From positions 62,001-126,000 of the forward strand of contig NZ_CP006269.1 in assembly GCF_000737535.1 (NCBI RefSeq): a stretch of DNA of 64,000 nucleotides, written 5' to 3'. The translations under genes were made by a program, and so were the position numbers. The number at the start of each line of letters is the position of its first letter. Position 1 is the first letter of the stretch. The notes under the pieces are model-generated. The model was given only the letters and a program-made list of their open reading frames with translations. It searched no databases and was not told the DNA's origin. This DNA is from Synechococcus sp. KORDI-100. Its GTDB lineage: Bacteria; Cyanobacteriota; Cyanobacteriia; PCC-6307; Cyanobiaceae. This document shows positions 3,547 through 20,850 of this stretch, in pieces.

Positions 3547-5261
3547 GCCACTTGGTAGGGATCGAGTTGAAGCTGCTGCTGACCGATCTCCAGATCACGC
3601 TCCCGGAGAGAGTCGTGCCACGACGATAGGGCGGCTTTTTCGCTCAGGGTGCTGAGGGGAAGGTTGAGACGTGCACTGGTCATGTTGTGCACGGCATAGA
3701 GGGGTTGTTGCGTGTTGCCGCGTTTCAGAACAACCAGATCGGAGCGACCGCCGCTGATCAAGGTCATGGGAGTGTCCGGATGCAGAGCTCGTATCGACGC
3801 ACGCACGCGCATGGCATGGCGCAGAACCTTCAGAACCAGGGTGGGGTCGCTCTCAGGATCATCCAGTCGACGTTCAAGCGAGTCGGTTTTGAACTGGGGT
3901 CGGTTGAGATCACGACGCTGGCCTGTTTTTCGGAATTTCGACACGTCATTGGGACTGGCCAGCAGAGCTGGAAGGTAGAAAGCCGGCACGCCAGGCAACG
4001 CCATCACGAGCAACTGCGTCAGAAGGAATCTCTCCAGCTGGAAATGGGAGGGATCAATCCCCCCATCGGCCATGGCACTCCACCAGCTGATGTTGATCTC
4101 ATAGGGAACATCGTCTCCGGAGCTGAGACGGCGATGGCTGATCAATCCCCCACGCTGCTCGCATGCGATCAGAAACTGCAGCAGACGTTTGTCGGGCATC
4201 AACCCCTCCAACGGCCGCAGGCCGACGCCGTCATGACAGGCGGTGAAGTTGAGCAACCCCGTTTGTTTCGGCAACGTCGGCCAGCGGGCGAGCCAGGCGT
4301 TGAGGAGATCGGCACGGCCGCTGATCGCACCCTCCAGAAGGAGAGGAGGAAGAGGGAAGTTGTAAGCGAGATGGGCTTCCTGACCGTTACGGAGATAGGA
4401 CAGGTTCTCCTGCTCAGGAACATTGGTTTCGGTGACGACAACGCCATCCGGACAAAGCGACTGGAGCAGCAGACGCAGAATCTGAACAAGGCGATAGGCC
4501 TCCGGCCTGTGGATACAGGTGGTGTTGGGTTCCTTCCAGATGAAGCCGACCGCATCAAGACGAATCCAACGCACACCGTGGCTTGACATCCGACGCAGCA
4601 GATCGGCGAATCCAATCAGCACATCGGGACTTCGCCAGTTCAGATCCACCTGATCCGGACCGAATGTGGTCCACACCTGACGTTTGCCGTTCGGTGGACC
4701 GAGCTGGGTGAACAGGGCCGTGCTGCGGGGCCGGACAACGTCGTTCCAACAGGGATCCGGACCGGCCTCAAGAACACAGGATTGGCCGGGATCCTCATGT
4801 CGAAGAAATTGCCGAACCCAGGGATGGGAAGCGGAGACATGGTTCAGAACAAGATCTGCCATCAACCGACGTCCCTCCGCCAGAGCGGAGAGATCGCTCC
4901 AATCGCCATGGCGCTCTTCCAGCTGTTCGTAGCTGGCCACTGCAAAACCGCCATCACTGGTGGATTTGAGAAACGGCAACACGTGGATGACTGCAGCGAA
5001 ATCCGTCAGATGGCGGTTCACGAGGCTGCGAAGACTTTGCAGACCGGAACGGCCCGCATCCACCACGGTGTCGGCATAGGTGATCAACACAGCATCTCCA
5101 CCGCTCCAAAGCGATGGACGAGCCTCTGGGGTGTCCCAGTTCCCTGACGGGTAAAAAGATTGCAGCAATTGTGACGACAGTTCCTCGAGATCACCGGAAG
5201 AATCAACCGGGTATACATCTCCGAGAAGCTTCCGCAACGTTCCCGCCTGCGGGTCATGCAT
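3528..5261 (-). CDS. GH13 sucrose-phosphorylase-family enzyme, probable glucosylglycerate phosphorylase
   Basis: A 577-aa enzyme of the GH13 subfamily that contains sucrose and glucosylglycerate phosphorylases. The catalytic aspartate is D236 in RWIRLDAVGF, the acid/base is E278 in VVVTETNVPEQE, and the transition-state aspartate is D343 in TACHDGVGLRP. All three are present, so it should be active. It is cotranscribed with and overlaps the phosphatase gene, and is divergent from gpgS. That context favours reversible phosphorolysis of glucosylglycerate over sucrose. It starts with ATG at 5261, and the 72 bp to the gpgS start must hold both promoters. Sucrose phosphorylase activity remains the alternative. 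Confidence 0.85.
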   Translation of the reverse strand: MHDPQAGTLRKLLGDVYPVDSSGDLEELSSQLLQSFYPSGNWDTPEARPSLWSGGDAVLITYADTVVDAGRSGLQSLRSLVNRHLTDFAAVIHVLPFLKSTSDGGFAVASYEQLEERHGDWSDLSALAEGRRLMADLVLNHVSASHPWVRQFLRHEDPGQSCVLEAGPDPCWNDVVRPRSTALFTQLGPPNGKRQVWTTFGPDQVDLNWRSPDVLIGFADLLRRMSSHGVRWIRLDAVGFIWKEPNTTCIHRPEAYRLVQILRLLLQSLCPDGVVVTETNVPEQENLSYLRNGQEAHLAYNFPLPPLLLEGAISGRADLLNAWLARWPTLPKQTGLLNFTACHDGVGLRPLEGLMPDKRLLQFLIACEQRGGLISHRRLSSGDDVPYEINISWWSAMADGGIDPSHFQLERFLLTQLLVMALPGVPAFYLPALLASPNDVSKFRKTGQRRDLNRPQFKTDSLERRLDDPESDPTLVLKVLRHAMRVRASIRALHPDTPMTLISGGRSDLVVLKRGNTQQPLYAVHNMTSARLNLPLSTLSEKAALSSWHDSLRERDLEIGQQQLQLDPYQVAWLVSQ

Positions 5262-5333
5262 GGAGCTTCACCTGCTGGATATGCCACAGGTATGGAGCAG
5301 GTCCCTTCGTCTTGTTGTCGCCTTCAACACCGC

Positions 5334-6611
5334 ATGGATTTTCAGCAAGGTCTGATCACCACGGTCCATGACTACGGCCTCGGAAATCTTGACGCCGTCG
5401 CTTTCAGGAAAGAACTCGCTCAAAAACGAACGGCACTGCTGATCCCATGCCTGATGGACGAGTTCAGTCGACCTGCTCTCGGACTGATCCGTGACGCTCT
5501 GAAGGAACTCAGTGGTCTCAGCTGCCTGGTGATCGCACTCTCCGCAGAGACGGCGGACGACGTTGCTGCAGCGGAGACGTTTTTCGAAGGAATGCCTTTT
5601 CCGGTCCAGGTTCACTGGACCAACGGTCCCGCCGTCCGGGACGTGCTCCTGTCTGTTCAGGACCTGGGACTGGAAGTGACAGGACCACCAGGGAAGGGCT
5701 GGGCCGTCTGGCAAGGTCTCGGTGTGGCCTGCAGTCAGGCCGAAGTGGTCGGACTATTCGACGCTGACATCCGCACGTTCGGATCGTCCTATCCCGAGCG
5801 AATGCTGCGTCCTCTGCTCGATCCATCCCATGGTGTGGCCTATGTGAAAGCGTTCTACAGCCGCCTCTCTCTCGAAACACAGGCATTGCAAGGACGAGCG
5901 ACACGTCTCTTCGTCGGTCCATTGCTTGCCAGCTTGGAACAGATCTTCGGCCCCCTCCCCTACCTTCGCTACCTGCAGTCGTTTCGTTACCCGTTGGCCG
6001 GGGAATTCGCCTTCACAACCGACTTGGCGATGAACCTCCGCATCCCGTCGGATTGGGGGCTGGAAGTTGGTCTGTTATCCGAGGTCTATCGCCACGTCGC
6101 GTCCAGCCGGATCGCTCAGGTTGATCTTGGACTGTTCGATCACAAACACAAAACTCTTGGCAACAAACCCTCGGAAGGCCTGCAGAGAATGGCCGGTGAA
6201 ATTTTCTGTACCGTTCTCCGCAGCTTGATGGAACACGAAGGTTGCGTGGTCTCAACCGATCAACTTCCCACTCTTGAAGTGCTGTATCGACGGGTTGGCG
6301 AAGATCGTGTGCGGCAGTTCGGCCTTGATTCGGCGATCAACCGTTTGCCTTACGACAGACATCGCGAAGAACTTGCCGTCCAGAGTTTTTCAAGTCTGCT
6401 GAGACCTGGACTGAAGCGGTTCCAGGACACCCCGATCGCCCATCAACTACCCAGCTGGTCACGATTGAACAGCTGTAATCCAATGCTTCAGAAAGATCTT
6501 GCTGAAGCGGGCCAGTCCGATCGAAAAATCTCTAGTCGAGCAACGATGATGCAGCGACCTCAATACCCTGCATTCGTCTCTCAAACTCTGACGAGTGAGA
6601 CTGCAGCCTGA
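5334..6611 (+). CDS. gpgS: Glucosyl-3-phosphoglycerate synthase (GT81)
   Basis: Transfers glucose from a nucleotide sugar to 3-phosphoglycerate, the first step to glucosylglycerate. The 425-aa protein has the GT-A nucleotide-sugar and metal motif LFDADIRTF (DAD at 143-145) and the preceding GKGWAVWQGLGVA segment of the family. I chose the ATG at 5334 (MDFQQGLITT); the open frame extends upstream to 5256, but that part would overlap the divergent phosphorylase and looks non-coding. It pairs with the phosphatase and phosphorylase on the other strand. The glycolytic substrate makes this route compatible with nitrogen-poor conditions, since the osmolyte has no nitrogen. Confidence 0.87.
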   Translation: MDFQQGLITTVHDYGLGNLDAVAFRKELAQKRTALLIPCLMDEFSRPALGLIRDALKELSGLSCLVIALSAETADDVAAAETFFEGMPFPVQVHWTNGPAVRDVLLSVQDLGLEVTGPPGKGWAVWQGLGVACSQAEVVGLFDADIRTFGSSYPERMLRPLLDPSHGVAYVKAFYSRLSLETQALQGRATRLFVGPLLASLEQIFGPLPYLRYLQSFRYPLAGEFAFTTDLAMNLRIPSDWGLEVGLLSEVYRHVASSRIAQVDLGLFDHKHKTLGNKPSEGLQRMAGEIFCTVLRSLMEHEGCVVSTDQLPTLEVLYRRVGEDRVRQFGLDSAINRLPYDRHREELAVQSFSSLLRPGLKRFQDTPIAHQLPSWSRLNSCNPMLQKDLAEAGQSDRKISSRATMMQRPQYPAFVSQTLTSETAA

Positions 6612-6621
6612 GCCCCACCTC

Positions 6622-6786
6622 TCATAACTCCTGCATCTGCTGACGAATCACCCAGTCCGTGGCAGCTCTCTGTGATTGCCAGGCTTGCAGCAACTGCTTG
6701 GCAATGATCTGAAGTTGATGAGGATCTGCCGTTGCGTCAATCGCGCGGTTCATCTTCTCAAGCTCAAATTGCTGAGTGATGCTCAT
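6622..6786 (-). CDS. Small conserved-looking cyanobacterial protein, unknown function
   Basis: A 54-aa predicted helical protein (MSITQQFELEKMNRAID...). It is rich in Gln, Ala and charged residues and has no membrane segment or signal. I recall similar small proteins with QFELE.MNRAID and AKQLLQAW blocks in marine picocyanobacteria, but no function. The ATG at 6786 is preferred over an in-frame GTG at 6804. The gene converges on gpgS with a 10-bp gap. The two helices might suit a small adaptor, but nothing in the sequence identifies a partner. Confidence 0.6.
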   Translation of the reverse strand: MSITQQFELEKMNRAIDATADPHQLQIIAKQLLQAWQSQRAATDWVIRQQMQEL

Positions 6787-6881
6787 GCTGATTCCCTTGG
6801 TCACGGAAAAATCATCAACGCGAGCCCTTTATCGCTGCTGCTTACAAAAAGAAACGTCTCTGTTGCGACGAAAAGCGACCC

Positions 6882-7163
6882 ATGTCAGCCGTTTCAGATC
6901 AAACTGAAGATGACAAAATCTTTCGCACCAACGCAGACAAGCGTTGTGGACGATTCTCCTGGCTTAGAAACAAGTCATCCTTCGTGCGTGGCATGCATTA
7001 CAACTGGGATCAACACCAGCGCCTGGCACAGACCATCGCATGCACATCGAAAGGGGATTTCGGTGTGGGACTCGCCTTGATGGGAGTTGCACTCCTCATG
7101 CTGTCAAAAGATCTCGAAAGGGATCTGGTGGATCAGTCAGCCGATCGCGATGCCATCGTTTAA
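6882..7163 (+). CDS. Hypothetical small membrane protein
   Basis: A 93-aa protein with a polar N-terminal 60 residues (SDQTEDDKIFRTNADKR..., WDQHQRLAQTIACTSKG), then one hydrophobic helix, FGVGLALMGVALLMLS (about 61-76), and an acidic tail. This looks like a single-pass membrane protein with a soluble N-terminal part. I do not recognise a family. It is divergent from the small gene before it and is followed by about 140 bp of AT-rich DNA. Coding status rests on length and composition only. Confidence 0.45.
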   Translation: MSAVSDQTEDDKIFRTNADKRCGRFSWLRNKSSFVRGMHYNWDQHQRLAQTIACTSKGDFGVGLALMGVALLMLSKDLERDLVDQSADRDAIV

Positions 7164-7301
7164 TGTTCTGCAGGGCACATTACTTTTGAAAAAGTATCCA
7201 TCGATAACATTGAAATATTAAGGAAAGTGGTTTTGGTGGCGACGCTAACAAAATAATCAAAAAAGTAAATCGATACTCATAGCACTGATTATCCCTTTTC
7301 A

Positions 7302-7538
7302 ATGCTCGAATGTTGGTACAAGAACAATTCCAGCAAAATGGTGATTTTGAAATGCATTGGGCCTGACCGGTTCTACCGAGAAAAGGTCGTCATGCCGATG
7401 GAAACCTTCTGCTTCGAGGCTCCAACGGAGGCCAGGCTTGAAATCTGGCAGATGTCCCTCGGGGGTCAGATGCTGCATCTCCGGGCTGACGCTGCAGATT
7501 ATGCCGTTGACACCTATGACAAAACCCTTGTGGCTTAA
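7302..7538 (+). CDS. DUF1830 family protein
   Basis: A 78-aa protein resembling the cyanobacterial DUF1830 family: an early CWYKNNSSKMVILKC strand pair, then FYREKVVMPMETFCFEAP and RLEIWQMS, the order typical of that family. It is predicted soluble and beta-rich, with no signal peptide. No biochemical role is established for the family that I know of. It stands alone between two AT-rich gaps of about 140 and 460 bp, so it probably has its own promoter. Confidence 0.72.
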   Translation: MLECWYKNNSSKMVILKCIGPDRFYREKVVMPMETFCFEAPTEARLEIWQMSLGGQMLHLRADAADYAVDTYDKTLVA

Positions 7539-7999
7539 ACAAGGAACGATCAGCAGACTTTCAACAACGGCCAATCGAGAATAATGATCAAGACCTCATT
7601 TACACAATCCCTACAGCATCGCAGCCAACAATCTCATAAAAATTATAAATTGCTTACATACTTTTTAAGGTATTTGTGATCATTTGGTTGAGATCAAAAC
7701 AGATTGACCAGACCAATCATTTTCTATAAAGTTACGGCTACACAGAAACTTTAAAAGCCACAACAACTCCTCTCACAACAGATCAGTCAATAAGAAGACT
7801 ACATTTGAATCAACTCGTAAAGCTACTTTTTGCTTTGGACATCAAATCCAGATCAAAGAATTTTCTAAAATCAGGATGGCAGCTTTACCAATAGCATACA
7901 AATACTCTCAGAATGAGAGACGAGAGGCCATCAGCAACTCATCTGTCTTGATTGGAATTCAACAGGTGTGCCTGAACAGGTCGATCTTGAATCAAATCC
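7539..7999. other. AT-rich intergenic region without a recognised gene
   Basis: About 460 bp that is visibly AT-richer than the surrounding DNA. I see no convincing reading frame, tRNA fold or repeat. It contains short A and T runs and could hold a promoter, a small RNA or decayed sequence. A stretch near 7765 (ACTCCTCTCAC) only loosely resembles the cyanobacterial Yfr1 core and I do not call it. Confidence 0.5.
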
Positions 8000-8287
8000 T
8001 CAGACGTTCACCCCTCCAGGAGTGATGCCAAGCAACTCAGCCGTCAATCGTGAACGAATGACGCCACCCGGCTGCACAGGCTGCTGCGAATGGTTTGAAC
8101 GAGCCGGATCAGGACCAAACACCTCATGATTGAGCTGCAGGAGCTCCGCTGTCTTCGCAGAACGGATAACCCCTTTCGACCGTTGCTTGAAGGCAGAACG
8201 GCGGTAGATGAGTTGCGAGGACTGAGACGCCGCCTTTGGGTCCAGCGCCAGTCCCGTTCGCGTAGCCTTGGTGGGAAGGTTTGACAT
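8000..8287 (-). CDS. Hypothetical protein with an internally repeated VIRS..TAELL motif
   Basis: A 95-aa basic protein (MSNLPTKATRTGLAL...) with no signal or membrane segment. It carries two copies of a short motif, KGVIRSAKTAELLQL in the middle and GGVIRSRLTAELLGI near the end, suggesting an internal duplication. I prefer the ATG at 8287; the open frame continues to 8326. I do not recognise the family. It is isolated: an AT-rich gap lies downstream and a divergent lipoprotein gene upstream. The function is unknown. Confidence 0.5.
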   Translation of the reverse strand: MSNLPTKATRTGLALDPKAASQSSQLIYRRSAFKQRSKGVIRSAKTAELLQLNHEVFGPDPARSNHSQQPVQPGGVIRSRLTAELLGITPGGVNV

Positions 8288-8514
8288 GGTGGTTGCCTCT
8301 GTGAATCCAAGGCCATTCGTTTCCACTCTTCAGAGAAACCGGACCTTGTATCGTGATGAACATCTGTAGCCTTCGCTACCATTTAATAGTGCCAAGAATC
8401 ACCAGCAAAAGAGGTTCGGCCTGAAACTCAGCTCTTAAAAAGATAGATTTTTTAATGATTCACAACCTTCTTCAACAATCTTTCCGTCTACCTGGGTCTC
8501 TGCCCTTTAGAGCA

Positions 8515-9006
8515 ATGAATCGCCTCCCCTTGAAACAGTGCATCCTGATCTCTGCGGTCGCTCTGTTGATGCCGTTTCAAGGGTGCAAGACCGTTCCGAA
8601 AGAAGTGAAGTACCAAGACGCACAACCGGGAGATGTCCTTGTCGTAAGCGACAACACGATGATCGAACTGTCCCATCCCTTCAAGGGAGGAGAACCAAAC
8701 GGCCTCTTTGACGGGGGTGTCATCGTTATCGAACCCGACAACACCCGAAAACAGATCGAAATCAACGTTGTCTGCAGCATGCCCGACCTGCCTAACTGGC
8801 CTGAGTACGACAACATCTACGGACGCTGGCTGGAGACCGACGAGAAACCAGGGGTTGCTGGGGGAGACACCGATTGGCAACTGTTGATGTACTTCGATGG
8901 CAACCTTGTCAATCAAGGAAAAGAAGAATCGCCGCCATGGGCGAAACGCCTTGCTGAGAACCTCTGTCGCAAGGGCGACTTCCAAGACGAGACGACGAAA
9001 ACTTAG
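8515..9006 (+). CDS. Putative lipoprotein, unknown function
   Basis: A 163-aa protein with a lipoprotein signal. A basic N-terminus (MNRLPLK) precedes a hydrophobic stretch, CILISAVALLMP, and a lipobox, FQGC, with the modified Cys at 24. The mature part has QPGDVLVVSDNTMIELSHPF and WLETDEKPGV, with no family I recognise. The ATG at 8515 gives the correct signal-peptide length; the open frame begins at 8455. It lies just upstream of the formamidase genes and in the same direction. The stop codon abuts a perfect NtcA-type box, so it is probably a separate transcription unit. Confidence 0.68.
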   Translation: MNRLPLKQCILISAVALLMPFQGCKTVPKEVKYQDAQPGDVLVVSDNTMIELSHPFKGGEPNGLFDGGVIVIEPDNTRKQIEINVVCSMPDLPNWPEYDNIYGRWLETDEKPGVAGGDTDWQLLMYFDGNLVNQGKEESPPWAKRLAENLCRKGDFQDETTKT

Positions 9007-9019
9007 TAACGCCTGATAC
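9006..9019 (+). promoter_or_regulatory. Candidate NtcA binding site upstream of formamidase amiF
   Basis: A perfect GTA-N8-TAC palindrome (GTAACGCCTGATAC), starting at the last base of the preceding stop codon and 105 bp before the amiF ATG. NtcA activates nitrogen-scavenging genes in cyanobacteria through this consensus. No TA-N3-T box sits at the canonical 20-24 nt downstream; the nearest, TAGTTT at 9056-9061, is 36 nt away. The box is clear, but promoter geometry is not ideal. Confidence 0.5.
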
Positions 9020-9123
9020 TTAAATCAGCAACCCTTCCCAAAAACAAGCCTGAAATAGTTTCAGATGCAACATACGGCGGGCGAACCGTGATGCACCATG
9101 AAAATGGTTCTCATTCTTGCCCT

Positions 9124-10170
9124 ATGGCCAGTACAGGTAGCGTCAGTTCCTGGGACGAATCACTGCTTGTTGCGATGATTCAGTACCCAGTTCCTGTGAT
9201 CAAGGGACCGGAAGACATCCAGACACAGGTCGATCAAATCTGCAAAGCTGTTGCCACAACCAAGGCCGGCTACCCAGAAGCTGATCTGATCGTGATGCCT
9301 GAGTACTCCACTCAGGGACTCAACACAGCGATCTGGACCTACGACGAGATGCTTCTCCGCATCGACTCACCCGAAATTGATCGTTTCCGACAGGCATGCA
9401 AGGAAAACGACGTGTGGGGCGTCTTTTCTTTGATGGAAGTGAACGACGATCCAAGCCTCCCGCCGTTCAATTCCGCGATCATCATCAACTCAGACGGTGA
9501 AATCGCTCTGCACTACAGGAAACTGCAGCCATGGGTTCCCATTGAGCCCTGGTCACCCGGCAACTATGGAATGCCTGTGTGCGATGGACCCAAAGGCTCA
9601 AAACTGGCTGTCTGCATCTGCCACGACGGCATGTTCCCAGAGCTGGCCAGAGAAGCCGCATACAAGGGAGCCAACGTTTACATCCGTATTTCTGGTTATT
9701 CCACACAGGTGAATGATCAATGGATCTGGACGAACAGAACGAACGCTTGGCAGAATCTGATGTACACAATTTCAGTCAACCTGGCTGGATATGATGGTGT
9801 CTTCTACTACTTTGGCGAAGGAACAGTCTGCAATTACGACGGCAATGTTATCCAGCAAGGGCACCGCAACCCCTGGGAAATTGTGACGGCAGAACTCTTC
9901 CCCCGATTGGTGGATAAAGCCCGCGAGAACTGGGCACTCGAGAACAATATCTTTAATCTTGGTTGCCGGGCCTACGTAGGCAAACCTGGAGGAGAAAAAG
10001 CCAATTACCTTACCTGGGTTGAGGATCTCGCCAATGGTGAATACAAACTGCCATGGGATAGCAGTGTTCGCATTCGCGATGGCTGGAAGTACTACCCAGA
10101 CGGGGTCAAGCTTGGGCCGATGCCAAAAGCAGAAACCCCTGCAGCTGAACCAGTAACAGCACCTGTCTGA
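9124..10170 (+). CDS. amiF: Formamidase, nitrilase superfamily (AmiF type)
   Basis: Hydrolyses formamide to formate and ammonia. From the ATG at 9124 the 348-aa protein places the Glu-Lys-Cys triad at E60 (VMPEYSTQG), K133 (HYRKLQPW) and C166 (AVCICHDGM). These are the same positions I recall for Helicobacter pylori AmiF, which supports both the call and the start over the ATG at 9088. The blocks [27 protein letters not shown] and [16 protein letters not shown] match formamidase rather than the broader aliphatic amidase AmiE. The C-terminal tail is Pro/Ala-rich. It is cytosolic, with no signal peptide. A second, unrelated formamidase follows. Confidence 0.92.
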
Positions 10171-10183
10171 GTTCAACTCATGT

Positions 10184-10210
10184 CAGGCCCCAAGGATTGC
10201 TTGGGGCCTG
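10184..10210 (+). terminator. Hairpin terminator after amiF
   Basis: A perfect 11-bp stem (CAGGCCCCAAG pairing with CTTGGGGCCTG) around a 5-base loop, 13 bp after the amiF stop. The following bases are only moderately T-rich. It separates amiF from fmdA, which then has about 170 bp of AT-rich leader. Confidence 0.65.
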
Positions 10211-10379
10211 ATTAGTTCATTGAGAAATAAAATTTCGCATTAGCATTACCAACTTTTCTGCGCAGTTAAATTAGTAACAACGTTATGAAATAACAATAAT
10301 CATTTTTGTCAGCACGTATCAACTGCAACCATTGGATCTGGAATGTCTGGATTCAATGGGATTGTTGCATGCAGCATTA

Positions 10380-11585
10380 ATGCCTGAAACTCTTTTCAAA
10401 GTTGATCTCACGAAACCGATGGATCAACAGGAAATGCCAGGACATAACAGGTGGCATCCCGATATTCCAGCCGTTGCCTCTGTCAATCCAGGTGACGTCT
10501 TTCGGATTGAATGCAAGGACTGGACTGACGGCCAGATCAAAAATGACGACAATCCGCAAGATATTGCTGATGTGAATCTTGAGGTTGTTCACGTTCTCAG
10601 CGGGCCAATTTGGGTGAATGGTGCGCAACCCGGAGATATTCTTGTCGTCGATATTCTTGAAGTTGGCGCATTACAAGGAGACGAGTGGGGATTCACTGGA
10701 ATCTTTGCCAAGGAAAATGGTGGCGGTTTTCTGACTGATCACTTCCCGAAAGCTGCAAAGGCGATCTGGGATTTAGAAGGTGTATACACATCCTCACGAC
10801 ACATTCCAGGCGTTCGATTTGCTGGCATTACACACCCTGGACTAATTGGTTGCGCTCCCTCAATGGAGCTGCTCAATGAGTGGAATCGACGCGAAACCGA
10901 ACTGGTCAACACAGCTCCGGATCGCCGCACCTACGGCGCAGGACTTTCTGGAAGTGAACCCGTTCTCGCAGCACTTCCAAATCCCAACAGTGCCATCCTT
11001 GGCAACGTTGAAGCCAGCGATTTTGATCGAATCGCAAACGAAGCCGCACGCACAGTTCCTCCGAGAGAACATGGTGGAAACTGTGACATTAAAAACCTGA
11101 CCAAGGGGACAAGAATTTACTTCCCTGTGTATGTTGAGGGTGGAAAACTTTCAATGGGCGACATTCACTTTTCACAAGGTGACGGCGAAATCTCCTTCTG
11201 CGGAGCTATTGAAATGTCTGGCTACCTTGATTTGCATGTTGATGTGATCAAAGGAGGAATGGCAAAGTACGGAATGGTCAACCCAATGTTTAAAACCAGC
11301 CCTGTTGAACCTCACTTCACAGATTACCTTGTTTTTGAAGGTATCTCTGTTGATGAGTTTGAAGGCAAGCAGTATTACATGGATGTGCACATCGCATACC
11401 GTCGAGCGTGCTTGAATGCGATTGAGTATTTAAAGAAGTTTGGATACACTGGAGAACAGGCCTATTTACTTCTCAGTTGCGCGCCTGTGGAAGGACGCGT
11501 TAGCGGGATCGTTGATATTCCAAATGCGTGTTGTACACTTGCGCTTCCCACTTCAATCTTTGACAAAGATATTCTCCCTTGCTAA
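10380..11585 (+). CDS. fmdA: Formamidase/acetamidase, FmdA-AmdA family
   Basis: A 401-aa amidase of the FmdA_AmdA fold, unrelated to AmiF, also converting formamide to formate and ammonia. It resembles Methylophilus FmdA along its length: LFKVDLTKPMDQQEM, HNRWHPDIPAVASVNPGD, IKNDDNPQDIADVNLE, HVLSGPIWVNGAQPGD, GGGFLTDHFPKA, SRHIPGVRFAGITHPGLIG and the C-terminal LLSCAPVEGRVSGIVD. The ATG at 10380 matches the family start; the frame is open from 10332. It follows amiF in the same direction but after a terminator. Acetamide or other short amides may also be substrates. Confidence 0.92.
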   Translation: MPETLFKVDLTKPMDQQEMPGHNRWHPDIPAVASVNPGDVFRIECKDWTDGQIKNDDNPQDIADVNLEVVHVLSGPIWVNGAQPGDILVVDILEVGALQGDEWGFTGIFAKENGGGFLTDHFPKAAKAIWDLEGVYTSSRHIPGVRFAGITHPGLIGCAPSMELLNEWNRRETELVNTAPDRRTYGAGLSGSEPVLAALPNPNSAILGNVEASDFDRIANEAARTVPPREHGGNCDIKNLTKGTRIYFPVYVEGGKLSMGDIHFSQGDGEISFCGAIEMSGYLDLHVDVIKGGMAKYGMVNPMFKTSPVEPHFTDYLVFEGISVDEFEGKQYYMDVHIAYRRACLNAIEYLKKFGYTGEQAYLLLSCAPVEGRVSGIVDIPNACCTLALPTSIFDKDILPC

Positions 11586-11616
11586 TTCTTCTAATTAATT
11601 AACCCGATCAACTAAT

Positions 11617-11644
11617 AAGCTTCCATCAATTTCGGTGGAAGCTT
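11617..11644 (+). terminator. Hairpin terminator after fmdA
   Basis: An 11-bp stem (AAGCTTCCATC with GGTGGAAGCTT, one G-T pair) with a 6-base loop, followed by a T-rich stretch. It lies 32 bp after the fmdA stop and just before fmdB. Confidence 0.65.
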
Positions 11645-11660
11645 TCTTGATTCACTCACT

Positions 11661-11939
11661 ATGCCTGTCTACGAATTTGAATGCAAGTCTGACACTTGTT
11701 CATCTGTGTATGAAGTCTGGAGGTCAATTGACCAACGCTCCTCAGACACGCAATGCCCTGAGTGTGGTTGTGATGGCAAAAGACTGTTCTCTCCACCAAT
11801 GATGCTATCGACAACTATTCGGTTGAAGACAGAGGATAAGAATCCAAAGGTTGTACGCCGGAAGGTTCAGGAACCAGGCAACAAGCCAAGGTTACGTTCC
11901 GGTGACTCTCGTCCATGGATGCTGAATCGGGGTTGCTGA
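11661..11939 (+). CDS. fmdB: FmdB-family zinc-ribbon protein
   Basis: A 92-aa protein beginning MPVYEFECKSDTC, with a second cysteine pair, CPECGCDGKRLFSPP. The likely zinc ligands are C8, C13, C32 and C35. This is the FmdB zinc ribbon, named from the Methylophilus formamidase locus and presumed regulatory. The first pair is CX4C rather than the common CX2C, a small deviation. It lies just after fmdA and ends facing the urt operon. Proximity to two formamidases fits a role in their expression, but the sequence shows no clear DNA-binding domain beyond the ribbon. Confidence 0.85.
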   Translation: MPVYEFECKSDTCSSVYEVWRSIDQRSSDTQCPECGCDGKRLFSPPMMLSTTIRLKTEDKNPKVVRRKVQEPGNKPRLRSGDSRPWMLNRGC

Positions 11940-11960
11940 ACAAACGAGTCAACAACCCCG
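11928..11960. terminator. Probable terminator hairpin between fmdB and urtE
   Basis: An 8-bp inverted repeat (CGGGGTTG and CAACCCCG) with a 17-base loop, overlapping the last codons of fmdB and lying between two convergent transcription units. It may end transcription in either direction. Confidence 0.4.
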
Positions 11961-11993
11961 GTACTAAAAACAAACTGATTTAAATGATTCGAA

Positions 11994-12740
11994 TTATACA
12001 GTCAAAAACTCTTCAATAACTTGATCTGACAACTGTGAGGTAGGTCCACTCGAAACGATACCACCCCGTTGCATTGCGTAATAGAAACTGGATTGCTTCA
12101 CAAAATGGAGATGCTGCTCCACTAACAAAACGCTGATGCCTGTTTCTTTGATGATTCTCTGAACAGCTCTTTCGATATCTAGAATGATAGAAGGTTGAAT
12201 ACCCTCTGTTGGTTCATCGAGAAGAAGGAGTTTTGGCTTACCAAGTAAAGCTCTGGCAATGGCAAGCTGTTGCTGTTGGCCGCCGCTGAGATCACCTCCA
12301 CGTCGGTTCAAAAACTGCTCAAGAATTGGAAACAATTCAAACACAATTGGATCAATATGCTTATTTTTACTCATGCCACCTGGAAGCGATTCCATTCCGA
12401 TCATCAAATTTTCTTTGACAGTGATTCTTGGAATAATGTCGCGTCCTTGTGAAACGTAACCAATTCCACGTCGAGCACGTTTATAAGGGGCTTGATCACT
12501 TAAAAACACTCCATCATATTCAATCGATCCAGAACGTTGCTCAAGCAATCCAATAATTGTTTTCAAAAACGTCGTTTTACCGACGCCGTTACGACCAATC
12601 AGGCAAATCATCTCTCCTTCAGGTATGTGCAGATCCACATTCCTGAGGATATGACTTTCGCCATAATATACATTTAACCCGCTAGACTTGAGAATAGTCT
12701 TTGTTGAAGAAGGATGCGATTTGGTTTGGAGTTGAGTCAT
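11994..12740 (-). CDS. urtE: Urea ABC transporter ATPase UrtE
   Basis: A 248-aa ABC ATPase of the LivF type, one of two that energise urea uptake. Walker A is GRNGVGKTT, the signature is LSGGQQQQL, and Walker B is LLLLDEPTEGIQPS. An 18-residue polar extension precedes the core, which begins near LNVYYGES. It is the last gene of a five-gene minus-strand operon, urtABCDE, 30 bp after urtD. The order and the neighbouring urease identify the substrate as urea rather than branched-chain amino acids. Related Fmd transporters take up short amides, so formamide import is possible. Confidence 0.93.
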   Translation of the reverse strand: MTQLQTKSHPSSTKTILKSSGLNVYYGESHILRNVDLHIPEGEMICLIGRNGVGKTTFLKTIIGLLEQRSGSIEYDGVFLSDQAPYKRARRGIGYVSQGRDIIPRITVKENLMIGMESLPGGMSKNKHIDPIVFELFPILEQFLNRRGGDLSGGQQQQLAIARALLGKPKLLLLDEPTEGIQPSIILDIERAVQRIIKETGISVLLVEQHLHFVKQSSFYYAMQRGGIVSSGPTSQLSDQVIEEFLTV

Positions 12741-12770
12741 GATCGTTTGAAAAAGTTGAATGTGGAATAA

Positions 12771-13514
12771 CTAGTCAGATTGGCCTAGATACACTTCAAT
12801 CACTTTTGGATCGGCTTTCACTTCGTCCAACGTTCCCTCTGTAAGCTTCTGACCTTGATGCAACACAGTGACTGGTGCTCCAAGATCGCGAATAAACTCC
12901 ATATCATGCTCAATCACAACAACAGTATGTTCTCCTGCTAGAGATTTGATGAGCTCAGCAGTTTTATTCGTCTCTTCATCTGTCAAGCCAGCCACTGGTT
13001 CATCCAACAAAATGATGTCTGGAGATTGAGCAACAAGCATGGAGATCGCCAACCATTGCTTTTGGCCATGGGAAAGCGAACCTGCATCAGACTTTGCATA
13101 TGGAGCTAAACCCACATAATCCATTAAGCGATGAACCTCATCCTTGACAGTACTGCTCAGCTTTTCAAACATCAATTGAAAAGGGGCTTTGTTCGGCGAA
13201 GCAGCCAGCTCAAGATTTCTTGCTACAGATAAGTTCTCAAAAACACGAGGTGTTTGAAATTTACGCCCAACACCGAGATTGGATATTTTTTGTTCGGATA
13301 ATCCAACGATGCTTGAGCCGCGTAGTGACACTGAGCCTTTGGTAGGTCTTACCTTGCCAGTAATCACGTCAAGAAACGTTGTCTTACCCGCTCCATTGGG
13401 ACCAATGATTGAGCGTAATTCTCCGGGTTGTAAAGAGATGGACAGATCAGTGAGGGCAAAAAAACCATCAAAATCGACACTTACATCACTAAGCTCGAGA
13501 ATTGGAGTCGTCAT
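12771..13514 (-). CDS. urtD: Urea ABC transporter ATPase UrtD
   Basis: A 247-aa ABC ATPase of the LivG type. Walker A is GPNGAGKTT, the signature is LSHGQKQWL, and Walker B is IILLDEPVAGLTDEE. The conserved histidine appears as VVVIEHDMEFI. It partners UrtE on the inner face of the membrane against the UrtB/UrtC permeases. It lies 49 bp after urtC. Nothing is missing compared with functional UrtD proteins. Confidence 0.93.
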   Translation of the reverse strand: MTTPILELSDVSVDFDGFFALTDLSISLQPGELRSIIGPNGAGKTTFLDVITGKVRPTKGSVSLRGSSIVGLSEQKISNLGVGRKFQTPRVFENLSVARNLELAASPNKAPFQLMFEKLSSTVKDEVHRLMDYVGLAPYAKSDAGSLSHGQKQWLAISMLVAQSPDIILLDEPVAGLTDEETNKTAELIKSLAGEHTVVVIEHDMEFIRDLGAPVTVLHQGQKLTEGTLDEVKADPKVIEVYLGQSD

Positions 13515-13563
13515 AATTTCTAGGTGAGTGAAAGAGGCAAGAAAATTGGTTTAAGGAGTAATG

Positions 13564-14676
13564 TCATCCGGTATAGCCTTCATCCATGTCGATTTTCGGA
13601 TATGTTGGAGATTTTTTAGCAATTCCGAAGGCTGCAAGCATGGTTTGGAATCCTCCATTCTTGAACCAGCCATAGATTCCATCAGGCATCAAGGTAACAA
13701 CAAAGATAAACAGAGCGCCTTGAACAAATAACCAGGCTTCCGGCAACGCTTCACTGACAAGACTACGAAGATAGTTAACAATGACTGCTCCAATGATCGG
13801 TCCGATCAACGTTCCTCTTCCTCCCACAGCAACCCAGATCACCATTTCGATTGACATCGAAATCGCCATATACTGAGGAGAAACAATTCCCGATTGCACG
13901 GTATACAAGGCACCGGAAATTCCTGCCAAACCTCCAGCAACCAAGAAAACAATGACCTTGAAAGGAACAGGATTGAAGCCACTGAAACGTAAACGAGCTT
14001 CATCGTCCCGAATACCGATGAGAGCATCACCGAAACGACCGCTGGTTAGAAACTTGCAAAGCAAATATGCAAGTGGCAGTAAAACCAAGGTAATTCTGTA
14101 AAATATAATTTGCGCATCGTCTGAACCAACAATCAACCCAAAAATCTCAGTAGTGCTTGTTTTCAATCCATTCGTACCGTTAACAAGCTTCTGCTGACCA
14201 TTAAAGAAATGGTAAAAAACCATCAACGATGCTTGGGTAATGATCGAAAAATAAACTCCTTTGATTCGATTCCTGAAAATCAAGTATCCAACTAAACCAG
14301 CGACAATTGCTGGTATGAGCCAGATGGCAATCAACGTCCAAGGGAAAGACCAGAACGGTTGCCAGAAAAATGGCAGGTTGTCAACTCCGTAATTCTCAAA
14401 GAATTTAGGAAGACCGTTGGCACCCGTTGTGAAATCGTTCTGGGTCACCAGCAACAAGTGCATACCTATCGCGTAGCCGCCCAGTGCAAAGAAGATTCCC
14501 TGACCCAAACTCAGAAGACCTGTATATCCCCAGATCAGATCAATCCCCAACGCAACAATTGCAAGTGAAAAATATCTACCGAAAAGATTCAAACGAAACT
14601 GTGAAAGAATTGCTGGCAGAACGAAAAATGCAAAAGCAAGAAGTAGCCAGGGGATGAGCTTTTTGAAGAGTTTCAT
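13564..14676 (-). CDS. urtC: Urea ABC transporter permease UrtC
   Basis: A 370-aa multi-pass permease of the LivM family with about ten hydrophobic segments. The family signature GYTGLLSLGQGIFFALGGY lies near the N-terminus, and AGISGALYTVQSG and VAVGGRGTLIGPIIGA near the middle. The C-terminal tail is polar. It lies 21 bp after urtB, so the two are probably cotranscribed. It forms the heteromeric membrane channel with UrtB. The DNA is noticeably AT-richer than the urease genes next door. Confidence 0.92.
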   Translation of the reverse strand: MKLFKKLIPWLLLAFAFFVLPAILSQFRLNLFGRYFSLAIVALGIDLIWGYTGLLSLGQGIFFALGGYAIGMHLLLVTQNDFTTGANGLPKFFENYGVDNLPFFWQPFWSFPWTLIAIWLIPAIVAGLVGYLIFRNRIKGVYFSIITQASLMVFYHFFNGQQKLVNGTNGLKTSTTEIFGLIVGSDDAQIIFYRITLVLLPLAYLLCKFLTSGRFGDALIGIRDDEARLRFSGFNPVPFKVIVFLVAGGLAGISGALYTVQSGIVSPQYMAISMSIEMVIWVAVGGRGTLIGPIIGAVIVNYLRSLVSEALPEAWLFVQGALFIFVVTLMPDGIYGWFKNGGFQTMLAAFGIAKKSPTYPKIDMDEGYTG

Positions 14677-14697
14677 GGTGAATAAGGGGAAAAAGGA

Positions 14698-15855
14698 TCA
14701 AGATTCAACAGAACGTCCCTTTTGAGGGAACATCCCTGTAGGCTTGAATTGAAGGAACGCAATGATGAAAATAAAGATCAGCACATAAGACATGCTGGTC
14801 GTCGCAAAAAACTCAATCACTGCAGATGCCGGATTAGGAATATTGGGGAATGCAATCAAGATGGCTCCTGAACCAATAATTGATTGAATAATGCCCAGCA
14901 TCATCGAAGCAATCACTGTTCCAACCAAATTTCCAACTCCTCCCAAAACAATCACCATAAAGCAGGAAACGATGTAAGCCGCACCCAAATTTGGACCGAC
15001 GGAACCAAGCAGTGTGATGGCACTTCCAGCAACACCTGCAAGGCCAGAACCGATGCCAAATGTAATACTGTCAACGCTATCTGTAGGAATGCCCAAGCAA
15101 TTACTCATCTGCCGGTTCTGCGTCACTGATCGTATACGTAGTCCCCACACACTCTTCGTCAAAAACCAGGCGACAAAAGCGAGTAACAGCGCAGAAAGAA
15201 TAATGATGAATATTCTGATCCCAGGCAATTCAATGCCTGCGATGGATCCCCAACTTCCCTGTAGCCATTTCGGGGCGGTCACATCAATATTCCGTGGTCC
15301 AAACCATGGTTTCGCCAATGCCTTTGAACCAGACATCGCAGAAATAGTTATAAATCCAATAATTGCAGATACAATCCAGAATATCCCGGAGACGTATGGG
15401 TAAAAAGCCGCCCGCTTTAGCGATTTGGGAGAAAAGCGTGATGCTAAAAAACCAAGGACAACAGCCACGACGATTCCAATCGTCATGCTGGTGGAAACGC
15501 TGCGAATAAATTGAATTAAAACCAAACTCACACCCCAGGTAGCGAGAAGCGTTTCCAGTGGGCGTCCATATAATTGGCGTATCAATGTACGCTCCAGCAA
15601 AACACCTACAAGCGCCGTTACGATAAACGCAAACACCAATGCAAACAGGTAGTACAGCTGAAAAACCCCTTCGCCCAACGGACGAAACATGTTCTGAGTC
15701 ACGAATGTCACATATGCCCCAACCATCATCAATTCGCCATGAGCCAGATTGATGACACCCATCAAACCGAAAACAATGGCAAGACCTGTTGCTGCCAGGA
15801 GGAGCACCGAGCCGATGCTCAGGCCATCAAGGAGTTGAGAGAAAATTAATTCCAT
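14698..15855 (-). CDS. urtB: Urea ABC transporter permease UrtB
   Basis: A 385-aa permease of the LivH family. The N-terminus carries LDGLSIGSVLLLAATGLAIVFG and GVINLAHGELMMVGAY, the classic start of the family. Later blocks are GLRIRSVTQNRQMS and VVLGGVGNLVGTV. Several further hydrophobic helices are evident. It is the second gene of the operon, about 100 bp after urtA, a gap in which partial termination after the abundant binding protein could occur. It pairs with UrtC. Confidence 0.92.
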   Translation of the reverse strand: MELIFSQLLDGLSIGSVLLLAATGLAIVFGLMGVINLAHGELMMVGAYVTFVTQNMFRPLGEGVFQLYYLFALVFAFIVTALVGVLLERTLIRQLYGRPLETLLATWGVSLVLIQFIRSVSTSMTIGIVVAVVLGFLASRFSPKSLKRAAFYPYVSGIFWIVSAIIGFITISAMSGSKALAKPWFGPRNIDVTAPKWLQGSWGSIAGIELPGIRIFIIILSALLLAFVAWFLTKSVWGLRIRSVTQNRQMSNCLGIPTDSVDSITFGIGSGLAGVAGSAITLLGSVGPNLGAAYIVSCFMVIVLGGVGNLVGTVIASMMLGIIQSIIGSGAILIAFPNIPNPASAVIEFFATTSMSYVLIFIFIIAFLQFKPTGMFPQKGRSVES

Positions 15856-15959
15856 CGGTTCATAGTGAAAAAAAAGTGGGCCTACAAATAATCGTGACCC
15901 ACTCGGGAGGATATTTCAGATGTAAAAATTACATCTTGAGCGTTCCAGTGTCAGAACGA

Positions 15960-17303
15960 TCAGGAGTCCATCTTGAACTTTCCGGCATCAGGACGATCAA
16001 GCGTCCAGTCGCACTTGAAGCCCTTCGTTTCAGGCACGTACTGGTTCCACGTGATCGGAGCGACAGGGGTCTTGCTGTCCCAGAGGATTTCAAACTGACC
16101 ATCCTCTTTGGCTTGTCCAATGCGGACAGTCTGAGAGATGTGGTGATTGGGGTACATCTCAATCGGACCCTGAGGAGCATCAAGTTTGATGCCAATCAGT
16201 GCATTTCTGACGGCATCAAGATCCTCATAGGTTCCAGCCTTCTCGACTGCAGCCTTCCACAGATAAACCATGTTGTAGGCCGACTCCATTGGGTCGTTGG
16301 TCACACGGTCGTCGCCATATTCCGCAAGGAAAGCAGCGTTGAAGGTGTTAGCAGCCTCAGTTCCGAGGGACATGAAGTAGTTCCAAGCGGCATAGGTGTC
16401 GCCCACATACTCAGGTCCGATCTGACGGATTTCCTCTTCCGCAATGGAGAAGGACATGATCGGGTACTTATCAGGAGTGATGCCCGCAGCCTTGAACTGT
16501 TTAAACAGTGCGACGTTGGAGTCACCATTCAGGGTGTTGATGATGATTCCACCGTCAGGGAACTCCTTCTTGATCTTGGCGATGATCGGAGCAACTTCCG
16601 TGTTGCCCAGAGGAATGTAATCCTCACCAACGGTTTCACCACCGAGGCTCTTCACCTGCTCTTTGATGATAGTGTTCGCGGTCCGTGGATAGACGTAATC
16701 GGAGCCGACGAGGTAGACCTTCTTGCCGTATTTGTCGGAGAACTGCTCAAAGAGCCAATCAACAGCGGGCTCAGCCTGCTGGTTCGGGACAGCACCCGTG
16801 TAGAAGATGTTCTTGGAGCACTCCTGACCTTCGTACTGAATCGGGTAGAAGAGGAAGTGGTCTTTTGCTTCGTAGACAGGAAGCATGGCCTTGCGGCTGG
16901 CAGACGTCCATCCACCAAAGACAACGGCGACCTCATCAGCGTCGATCAGCTTCTGAGATTTCTCAGCGAAGGTGGGCCAATCGGAGGCACCGTCTTCTGA
17001 GGTGTAGACGATCTTGTAGCTCTTGCCGTCGACGGAGACGCCGCCTGCCTCATTGATCTCCTTGATGGCGAGCTCTTCGACCTCTTTCAAGGTTGTTTCG
17101 GAGATGGCCATCGTTCCACTCAGAGAATGGAGGATGCCAACCTTGATCTCCCCATCAAATTCGGTGGCTGCGCCACCGCTGTCGCCATCGCTGGCGGTAT
17201 CACCGCCACCGCCACCACCACTTCCGCCACAGGCGGTCATGGTTACGCCAACTGCTGTCGCAGCAAACGCTGCCAGCAAACGCTTTGATAGTGCAGAAGT
17301 CAT
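15960..17303 (-). CDS. urtA: Urea-binding lipoprotein UrtA
   Basis: A 447-aa substrate-binding protein of the urea ABC transporter, anchored as a lipoprotein. The ATG at 17303 gives a normal signal (MTSALSKRLLAAFAATAVGV) and a lipobox, MTAC, with Cys25; the longer frame to 17414 would bury this signal. A glycine-rich linker (GGSGGGGGGD) follows. The core starts IKVGILHSLSGTMAISE and continues GGVSVDGKSYKIVYTSEDGASDW, typical of UrtA/AmiC-like sensors. It is the first gene of the urt operon. A candidate NtcA-type promoter lies 47-88 bp upstream. Confidence 0.94.
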   Translation of the reverse strand: MTSALSKRLLAAFAATAVGVTMTACGGSGGGGGGDTASDGDSGGAATEFDGEIKVGILHSLSGTMAISETTLKEVEELAIKEINEAGGVSVDGKSYKIVYTSEDGASDWPTFAEKSQKLIDADEVAVVFGGWTSASRKAMLPVYEAKDHFLFYPIQYEGQECSKNIFYTGAVPNQQAEPAVDWLFEQFSDKYGKKVYLVGSDYVYPRTANTIIKEQVKSLGGETVGEDYIPLGNTEVAPIIAKIKKEFPDGGIIINTLNGDSNVALFKQFKAAGITPDKYPIMSFSIAEEEIRQIGPEYVGDTYAAWNYFMSLGTEAANTFNAAFLAEYGDDRVTNDPMESAYNMVYLWKAAVEKAGTYEDLDAVRNALIGIKLDAPQGPIEMYPNHHISQTVRIGQAKEDGQFEILWDSKTPVAPITWNQYVPETKGFKCDWTLDRPDAGKFKMDS

Positions 17304-17349
17304 AAAAAGGAACACACACTGTGGTGAATCCGCCGTGAGGCGAAACGTG

Positions 17350-17391
17350 ACGGTATGAACCAGATATGACCGCCTTTGTATCATCAGCAAC
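17350..17391 (-). promoter_or_regulatory. Candidate NtcA-activated promoter of the urt operon
   Basis: Read on the minus strand, GTT-N8-TAC (17391-17378) differs from the NtcA consensus at one base. After exactly 22 nt comes TACCGT (17355-17350), matching the TA-N3-T -10 element. This is the canonical NtcA-class layout and predicts a transcript start about 40 nt before the urtA ATG. Confidence 0.55.
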
Positions 17392-17410
17392 CTTTTGGGA
17401 AGTGCCGCCC

Positions 17411-18022
17411 TCAAGCGGCCGATTTCGGTAGCTGTTGCAACAAGAATGAGGAAACTTTCTCGAAACCCTCACCAGTCACCAAATTGGTAAAACACCACGG
17501 CCTGTTACCCCTCATGCGGTCGGCGTCCCGTTCCATCACACCAAGATCGGCCCCAACAAAAGGAGCCAGATCGATCTTGTTGATGACCAGCAGATCGGAT
17601 TTGGTGATTCCAGGCCCTCCCTTGCGGGGAATCTTGTCGCCGGCAGCCACGTCGATGACGTAGATGCACAAATCCACCAGCTCAGGACTGAAGCTGGCAG
17701 CGAGATTGTCTCCACCGCTTTCCACCAACACCACATCCAAGTTGGGGAACTGGACTTCAAGGTCCGCCACGGCGGCACGGTTGATCGAACAGTCCTCACG
17801 GATCGCGGTATGCGGGCAACCGCCGGTCTCCACTCCGCGGATGCGCTCCGGCTCCAGAGCACCGGATCGCGTCAAAAACAGGGCATCCTCCTGGGTGTAG
17901 ATGTCGTTGGTCACAACGGCGAGCTCAAGCTGGTCCCGCAAACGACGGCAGAGTGCTTCCACAAGAGCCGTTTTTCCAGATCCCACAGGACCCGCGACTC
18001 CAAGCCTCAGCTTGCTGCTCAT
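17411..18022 (-). CDS. ureG: Urease accessory GTPase UreG
   Basis: A 203-aa SIMIBI GTPase that drives nickel insertion into apo-urease. The P-loop is [18 protein letters not shown] near the start, with [10 protein letters not shown] and the metal-binding [14 protein letters not shown] (Cys-Pro-His) motif. [13 protein letters not shown] and [14 protein letters not shown] complete the set. It abuts ureF and belongs to the minus-strand ureEFG unit. The urtA gene begins 108 bp further on, so read-through is possible. Confidence 0.95.
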
Positions 18023-19145: not shown

Positions 19146-19258
19146 GCCAGTCGATCCAGCTTCGAGGAGCCTGCCCAGCTCGACCACCATTTTTGGTGTG
19201 CAACGCTACTGATCCGTGGGGTCTCCCATGCCGAACGTGGGTACCACGCGACACTGCA

Positions 19259-20194: not shown

Positions 20195-20212
20195 AACCGA
20201 GCGAGGCTCTCC

Positions 20213-20515
20213 ATGTATCTCAGTCCGCAGGAAAAGGACAAGCTCCTGATCGTGACCGCTGCCCTGCTGGCTGAACGCCGCCTTGGCAGGGGGTTGAAGC
20301 TCAACCACCCTGAAGCTGTGGCCTGGCTCAGCTTTCTCGTCCTCGAAGGTGCGCGTGATGGCCGAACCGTTGCGGAGCTGATGCAGGAGGGCAGCACCTG
20401 GCTCAACAAGGATCAGGTGATGGAGGGGGTGCCCGAACTGGTGCACGAGGTTCAGATCGAGGCGGTTTTTCCAGACGGCACCAAGCTCGTCACCCTGCAC
20501 GACCCAATTCGCTGA
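20213..20515 (+). CDS. ureA: Urease gamma subunit UreA
   Basis: The 100-aa gamma subunit of nickel urease, full length for the family. It starts [23 protein letters not shown] and contains [21 protein letters not shown] and [22 protein letters not shown], all diagnostic. It lies 18 bp after ureD and 11 bp before ureB. The three separate subunits are the usual bacterial arrangement. Confidence 0.97.
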
Positions 20516-20526
20516 GGACGTACCGA

Positions 20527-20847: not shown

Positions 20848-20850
20848 CCC

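Follow-up and report, generated by a model that had tools for sequence, protein, structure and literature searches.

Two unrelated formamidases at a picocyanobacterial urea-transporter locus: a conserved fmdA-urt block and an amiF gene predicted to belong to the zinc regulon

Why should a picocyanobacterium carry two formamidases side by side, next to the genes for its urea transporter? The question is raised by a 64,000-nucleotide stretch of Synechococcus sp. KORDI-100 (NZ_CP006269.1, forward-strand positions 62,001 to 126,000; hereafter the window), part of a single-contig genome of 2.79 Mb, in which amiF and fmdA are followed by fmdB and by convergent urtABCDE genes. We propose, with a probability of roughly 60%, that the locus combines a nitrogen-scavenging fmdA block with a separate, zinc-responsive amiF, and that the two formamidases are partly interchangeable. 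A mobile amiF with a zinc-sensor control site may explain why two such enzymes are present; what was unexpected is the apparent membership of the second formamidase in the zinc regulon.

A first-pass annotation of the window had assigned amiF, fmdA, fmdB, and the convergent urt genes, and its positions, order, and directions are all borne out. Its claim that the two formamidases belong to unrelated families also stands, as both proteins score above the cut-offs of curated models (Table 1). The closest solved chains to AmiF are formamidases (5g3o, 2dyu, 2e2k), and the closest to FmdA is 2wkn, deposited as a formamidase. The amiF reading frame is open from GTG 9088, but its start is placed at ATG 9124 by comparison with relatives, whose upstream regions, inspected by eye, contain in-frame stops in some cases; fmdA likely starts at ATG 10380, matching relatives. 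Numbered from ATG 9124, AmiF has all of E60, K133, W137, E141, C166, D168, and Y192, with residue roles taken from PMC10781810. The E60-K133-C166 triad of the first-pass annotation is exact in this numbering, the number of the lysine being that annotation's own. Both proteins are formamidases by family, and both are predicted to hydrolyze formamide.

A conserved 7-1-7 palindrome directly precedes the amiF start codon. In the KORDI-100 genome, the pattern TGANAATNATTNTCA has a single exact match, located in the interval that separates a ZnuA-family gene from divergent genes for a metal-type ATP-binding cassette (ABC) ATPase and permease. Allowing up to one mismatch gives eight matching places, and none for a reversed control pattern. 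Across the genus, znuA genes were taken from 28 of 34 genomes, and all 28 upstream regions carry a box of this pattern, with 10 to 12 of its 12 fixed positions. The box between znuC and znuA has been studied experimentally in Synechococcus WH8102 (PMC9337993). A Zur matrix built from these 28 znuA promoters only, applied to 687,289 bases of the window and compared loci, returned 33 sites scoring at least 14: 19 precede amiF, nine precede fmdA, four precede CobW-type GTPase or CaMKII_AD-type genes, and one is unexplained. This last site (window 43805-43823, score 14.3) lies inside a gene of the nitrite/sulfite-reductase family. Within fixed 220-base upstream stretches, those from related genomes not being independent of one another, a site scoring at least 10 was found before amiF in 21 of 23 loci, before fmdA in 11 of 35, and before eleven other genes in 0 of 308; the scan dropped locus L086, matches below 37% identity, and stretches shorter than 100 bases. 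The amiF site lies 26-28 nucleotides before the start in the same proportion of loci (21/23), as the best site in 19 and as the second site in L073 and L236.

The distribution of amiF likewise sets it apart from its neighbors. Above the model cut-offs, FmdA was found in 13 and AmiF in 12 of the 34 genus genomes. Among 400 genomes of the family, amiF occurs in 21, of which 20 also have fmdA; seen from the other side, a full-length amiF is present in 20 of the 62 fmdA genomes, and the remaining 42 gave no amiF match, two of them holding a truncated copy. The gene takes several places. Eleven genomes of this genus, one of them with a broken fmdA, have it between the lipoprotein-like gene and fmdA, as does G009. 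In three genomes from other genera it lies downstream of fmdB, and in six (G086, G108, G200, G254, G303, G354) it is away from urt. In all six of these, as judged from the neighbors that our queries matched, it stands among Zur-boxed genes: in G086 and G108 its neighbors are genes for CobW GTPases, WD40 proteins, and a metallophosphatase, and in the other four it is beside a flavin adenine dinucleotide (FAD) oxidoreductase gene. From these placements, amiF is a mobile addition to the locus, and its link appears to be with zinc control and not with urt. The gene was also observed on a contig of a Planctomycetota metagenome-assembled genome (MAG; L157, 274-1278), where an amiF 92% identical to that of the window is divergent from an fmdA of 65% identity and has no Zur-type box; this reflects either recent transfer or misbinning.

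Losses at these loci affect either gene. In G002, amiF is intact and fmdA has three in-frame stops, and G009 keeps amiF together with a short, degenerate stretch resembling fmdA (a match of 49 residues at 37% identity, E 1e-6, against 525 bases), a weaker case because the assembly is incomplete and contains N's. Conversely, G020 and G024 have an intact fmdA and an amiF cut to about 73 residues. Among F-type loci (defined below) whose full length was examined, none has lost the two formamidases together. These one-or-other losses fit two enzymes that would do one job under different conditions.

The fmdA gene, by comparison, is part of a fixed arrangement. Regions were compared by tblastn in 14 further genus members with this version of urt, eight without it, and selected other family members. 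The order lipoprotein-like gene, (amiF), fmdA, fmdB, (amiF), convergent urtE, with amiF optional at either bracketed place, holds at all 33 picocyanobacterial fmdA loci that could be tested, that is, whose contig reaches far enough past fmdA (the window, 12 congeners, L059, L061, L063, L074, L076-L084, L087-L091, L242, and L243; L086 was left out as the same record as L074); at two of these loci amiF stands between fmdB and urtE. The lipoprotein-like gene is upstream of fmdA in 35 of 35 loci, the two additional ones (L060, L085) being on contigs that end before urt. In eight fmdA-free congeners, the same site carries a urt operon of only 53-71% identity between an upstream gene at 78-80% and ureG at 85-90%, and tblastn found no lipoprotein, fmdA, or fmdB match there. 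The entire urtABCDE operon is thus found in two versions exchanged at one chromosomal place within a genus (L065-L072 versus L045-L057), and both versions occur inside several genera.

At the level of the family, UrtA is present in 308 of 400 genomes, and 62 of the 400 hold the version found beside fmdA (F-type, at least 76% identity; all others are at or below 72% among the matches listed). FmdA at 91% identity or more is likewise found in 62 genomes, and 58 hold both; G311, with an FmdA homolog of 36%, was excluded from these counts. Four F-type genomes have no FmdA match: the contigs of G019, G338, and G342 end inside urt, and G009 retains only its degenerate piece. The four FmdA genomes not counted as F-type comprise G211 and G218, which do have this urt adjoining fmdA, G101, whose contig ends before urt, and G091. 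The 58-genome overlap and the explained misses indicate that the block is inherited as one piece, and its conservation in dozens of genomes excludes a chance grouping of the genes. The first-pass annotation had expected a conserved amiF-fmdA-fmdB-urt order; what proved conserved is fmdA-fmdB-urt, coinherited with one urt version, and the full order including amiF was seen in the 11 genomes of a single genus noted above. Given that conservation and coinheritance, a block that scavenges formamide and urea is a reasonable reading.

A rival explanation would be neighborhood only, with the locus as a nitrogen island in which the fmdA-urt segment, from ureG to the upstream gene, is exchanged whole by homologous recombination. 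In its favor, urease genes are neighbors, and further along the window come genes for a molybdopterin oxidoreductase, a protein of the nitrite/sulfite reductase family, MoaA-like and MoeA proteins, and major facilitator superfamily (MFS) transporters; the borders of the swap fit recombination at conserved flanks. However, fmdA, often with fmdB and a urt-like transporter, recurs in other groups and in other orders: outside the picocyanobacteria, 21 of 73 named loci have a urt-like operon beside it, among them loci of filamentous cyanobacteria, Methylophaga, and a Verrucomicrobiales bacterium. Loss of the fmdA gene from an F-type genome was found in a single case, G009. We regard neighborhood alone as possible, with the odds leaning against it.

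The block may also be under nitrogen control. At all 17 loci of this type the pattern GTAN8YAC is present upstream of the lipoprotein-like gene, against 1.4 expected from shuffled sequence, and at all 18 Cyanobium-like loci it is present upstream of fmdA, against 1.2 (L086 in this set repeats L074). NtcA activation expects a -10 box, TAN3T, about 22 nucleotides downstream of GTAN8TAC. Over a total of 430,357 bases, the strict pattern shows no enrichment, with 34 occurrences compared with 79 after shuffling, and strict boxes are absent upstream of urtA (0/32), ureG (0/30), and fmdB (0/33). NtcA control of amiF was rejected, the strict box occurring in 2 of 21 loci against 0.9 expected, as by chance. 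Reading the palindrome as an RNA hairpin yielded only its 5-pair stem as consensus structure. In Arthrospira, FmdA rises under nitrogen limitation (PMC4509649).

Taken together, the reading we prefer would divide the locus into two units. The first would consist of the lipoprotein-like protein, FmdA, and FmdB facing the UrtABCDE importer and urease; inherited with its own urt version, it would yield ammonium from urea through urease and from formamide, its presumed substrate, through FmdA. The second would be amiF, encoding a cysteine-nucleophile formamidase that occupies several genomic places and carries its own operator. The agreement of this operator with the Zur box of the zinc-importer genes predicts that zinc-loaded Zur represses amiF and that a shortage of zinc turns the gene on. 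One formamidase would then serve the nitrogen block and the other the zinc-starvation response.

Several observations weigh against this division. Two of the 23 amiF loci, L057 and L235, have no box at the gene start; in L235, whose 5' end is uncertain, the nearest projection of the start leaves boxes about 500 bases upstream. Boxes scoring at least 14 also precede fmdA in 8 of 35 loci, and the zinc mark is therefore not exclusive to amiF. No role in zinc metabolism is known for the FAD oxidoreductase that neighbors amiF in four genomes, and CobW-type zinc genes accompany the relocated amiF in two of six genomes rather than in most, which lowers our confidence. The KORDI-100 genome has three Fur-family genes, and the box is ascribed to Zur because of the znu promoters. 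As for the block, its joint inheritance could follow from adjacency alone, and the -10 TAN3T box at its usual spacing accompanies none of the 17 candidate NtcA sites before the lipoprotein-like gene and one of the 18 before fmdA; NtcA therefore stays a candidate regulator of the block.

Why the two-unit arrangement should include a second formamidase at all may be a matter of sparing zinc: FmdA would need a metal, zinc, AmiF would not, and Zur would turn on AmiF as a replacement. Zur-controlled, zinc-free paralogs that replace zinc proteins are a general pattern. This is our preferred, though unproven, account of the pair, and a tentative one that we place somewhat below even odds. Zur boxes stand at nearly all amiF genes, in two genomes amid CobW-type zinc-response genes, and the strong Zur box before a P-loop/metallophosphatase operon of the same genome, near a gene like metal-independent carbonic anhydrase (described below), points the same way. 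A review states that H. pylori AmiF contains no metal (PMC10781810), and a pattern in FmdA, H-GGN-D and GD-H-GDGE, is common to three of four distant PF03069 structures compared by eye (3b9t differs) and marks a possible metal site. However, no source was found stating that FmdA holds zinc, and the available text of PMC12421990, which names the FmdA family, contains neither "zinc" nor "metal." The boxes before fmdA are not expected under a sparing model and speak against its simplest form; the 42 of 62 fmdA genomes that gave no amiF match also count against the model. A kinetic division of labor was also considered, with a Km of 32 and 108 mM for AmiF and 2.1 mM for Methylophilus FmdA (PMC10781810, Table 1); it is not relied on because the lupin FmdA-type enzyme has a Km of 71 mM.

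The box before the P-loop/metallophosphatase operon lies elsewhere in the KORDI-100 genome, outside the window (L234, 5150-8240; G000 contig C1, about 1435149-1438239), and scores 25.3. The P-loop protein has no family match, and the gene resembling a metal-independent carbonic anhydrase reaches 174 bits, below the cut-off of 350. This region may be a zinc-starvation island.

A different use for both enzymes builds on the first-pass annotation, which made urt the importer of formamide: the F-type Urt system would import formamide as well as urea, both formamidases would serve that uptake, and Tyr192 of UrtA would adapt the binding pocket. Nine residues surround urea in UrtA, eight of them highly conserved (PMC10392092). 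The UrtA of the window keeps all eight (W120, S122, Y141, Q144, E146, Y190, N246, S274) and has Tyr rather than Phe at 192; positions were placed by motif, with Asn and Ser each placed by two candidates, both of which are kept. The eight are retained in all 29 F-type, 7 P-type, and 26 readable phylum-wide receptors. At position 192, all 29 F-type receptors have Tyr, and all 33 readable receptors not beside fmdA have Phe (three of 36 were unreadable, two of these being Phe in a separate reading); additional readings agree, with three F-type Tyr and one P-type Phe. Among 29 urt loci across the phylum, no fmdA was found within 1.5 kb. The 17 FmdD-like receptors beside fmdA in other groups, presumptive orthologs of FmdD, all have Tyr or Trp at 192. 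A separate case is L115, a Synechococcaceae MAG in which fmdA-fmdB adjoins a urea-type urt operon of 33-55% identity whose UrtA has Tyr192; a second, partial urtA lies on the opposite strand.

Import of formamide by F-type Urt thus has in its favor the joint inheritance of fmdA with this urt, the association of Tyr or Trp at 192 with fmdA linkage and of Phe with its absence, and the 21 loci outside picocyanobacteria in which urt-like operons adjoin fmdA. In contrast, all 17 FmdD-like receptors have lost Gln144 and Asn246, and F-type UrtA keeps both along with the other urea-binding residues, so that its pocket is not of the FmdDEF type. Mutation of Phe192 barely altered urea binding, and Phe192 is not highly conserved (PMC10392092). 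The F-type receptors also form one clade in a FastTree tree, and the Phe-to-Tyr change therefore counts once; together, these points make Tyr192 a lead rather than proof of formamide import. For the other 52 of the 73 named loci, the available DNA, in some cases a short contig, shows no urt-like operon with fmdA. Urease genes adjoin urt, which makes urt first of all a partner of urease, and formamide may enter by diffusion. Judged by its pocket, F-type Urt is a urea importer with one fmdA-associated substitution, and the wider proposal of formamide import is given somewhat less than an even chance. An unlikely extension would have the zinc sensor run organic-nitrogen scavenging as a whole, with zinc-free AmiF, derepressed through Zur, replacing a metal-dependent FmdA and the Phe-to-Tyr change in UrtA admitting formamide.

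The features of the locus are collected in Table 1. All five Urt subunits score above TIGRFAM cut-offs. Beyond urtA lie ureG and ureF on the minus strand and then divergent ureD, ureA, ureB, and ureC, which the first-pass list had left out (UreF and UreD assigned by Pfam, UreABC by NCBIfam). The terminator-like hairpin after fmdA is weak because the scan gave 6 such sites against 4.0 in shuffled sequence.

Table 1. Features of the KORDI-100 formamidase and urea-transporter locus (positions in the window; bit scores with model cut-offs)
Feature	Position	Strand	Remarks
NtcA-type palindrome GTAGCCTTCGCTAC, core GTAN8TAC	8366..8379	+	upstream of lipoprotein-like gene; NtcA candidate only
Lipoprotein-like gene, conserved	8455..9006	+	no Pfam match; just upstream of amiF; absent from first-pass list
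Zur-type box CATGAAAATGGTTCTCATT	9097..9115	+	8 nucleotides before amiF ATG; score 17.9, znuA-only matrix
amiF, nitrilase-superfamily formamidase	9124..10170	+	NF009803 597.8 bits (cut-off 406)
Weak Zur-like box upstream of fmdA	10292..10310	+	score 11.9
fmdA, FmdA_AmdA-family formamidase	10380..11585	+	NF045496 668 bits (cut-off 500); PF03069 625 bits (cut-off 27)
Terminator-like hairpin after fmdA	11617..11644	+	11-pair stem, T-rich tail; weak
fmdB, zinc-ribbon protein	11661..11939	+	TIGR02605 39.4 bits (cut-off 31.3); PF09723 41.2 bits
urtE	11994..12740	-	TIGR03410 312.6 bits (cut-off 285.8)
urtD	12771..13514	-	TIGR03411 361.3 bits (cut-off 304.1)
urtC	13564..14676	-	TIGR03408 441.9 bits (cut-off 296.2)
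urtB	14698..15855	-	TIGR03409 348.1 bits (cut-off 250.3)
urtA open reading frame	15960..17414	-	true start probably internal; TIGR03407 585.4 bits (cut-off 492.75); urea-type pocket, Tyr192
ureG, first urease accessory gene	17411..18022	-	TIGR00101 328.5 bits

The lipoprotein-like protein likely starts at 8515, with its lipobox Cys at 8584-8586 (both by eye). Its family, which is tied to fmdA (window, L045-L091), consists of proteins about 140 residues long in which several positions, two Cys among them, are invariant. Its AlphaFold model has a pLDDT (predicted local distance difference test) of 87, and a Foldseek search of the PDB gave no match at E at or below 0.001; in a separate comparison the best VIA Z was 5.6.

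Of the genes mentioned above, the nitrate-assimilation-like ones (MFS transporter, molybdopterin oxidoreductase, MoeA, nitrite/sulfite reductase family) follow the urea cluster at 31929-44737. An Rfam scan of 5000-25000 returned a single match, RF02514 (H. pylori-type 5' ureB small RNA; 158 bits), at 21006-21292 on the minus strand, antisense within ureC; this is probably a likeness of coding sequence, a real antisense RNA being possible. One pattern-based scan each of viral contigs found no relative of AmiF or FmdA.

The locus offers a concrete picocyanobacterial case in which paired formamidases, a matching importer version, and testable control come together. Formamidase genes reportedly rise under nitrogen limitation in diverse phytoplankton, where the role of the enzyme has been called unknown (PMC9599627). 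Should the zinc link prove true, the supply of zinc would be one determinant of which enzyme the cell uses, and a single annotation, "formamidase," would mask two functions under different regulation; should zinc run scavenging as a whole, zinc and nitrogen limitation would be tied together in picocyanobacteria. The Phe/Tyr switch in UrtA provides a direct test of the distinction between urea and amide importers. Literature searches listed no title dealing with this block or with control of a cyanobacterial formamidase by Zur.

Several known systems share parts of this arrangement. The Zur regulon of Synechococcus WH8102 (znuABC, bmtA) includes a box between znuC and znuA, as at L195 here, and the main text of that paper, as far as available, mentions neither amidase nor urea (PMC9337993). 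A hot-spring Synechococcus has an accessory cluster of eight genes with amiF/amidase (PMC4477158), likened here by description only; the available passages state no link of that cluster to urt, fmdA, or zinc. Helicobacter pylori AmiF and AmiE include an enzyme of the same AmiF family that is under metal-dependent regulators although it is itself metal-free (PMC10781810); there the control is by Fur, NikR, and acid, whereas here the box is of Zur type and the partner formamidase comes from another family. In Bradyrhizobium, a urt-like operon lies beside a PF03069 acetamidase/formamidase and a PF00795 nitrilase-fold aliphatic amidase and was inferred in that work to carry amides rather than urea (PMC3098086); the receptor described here, in contrast, keeps the urea pocket.

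The closest counterpart is the fmdCABDEF operon of Methylophilus methylotrophus, which encodes a formamidase, a putative positive regulator, a porin, and an ABC transporter for short-chain amides and urea (PMC10781810). Like that operon, the picocyanobacterial locus joins fmdA and fmdB to a linked transporter of the amide/urea type, at all 33 loci that could be tested. Unlike it, the transporter is a urea-type UrtABCDE accompanied by urease and convergent to fmdA rather than in the same operon, a lipoprotein-like gene stands upstream (a porin was not searched for), and a second formamidase carries a Zur-type box. The suggestion in the first-pass annotation of an undescribed system thus holds for a conserved module and fails for a wholly new one, given the Methylophilus and Bradyrhizobium precedents: the joining of fmdA and fmdB with an importer of the amide/urea type varies a kind already described and is related to the Methylophilus operon.

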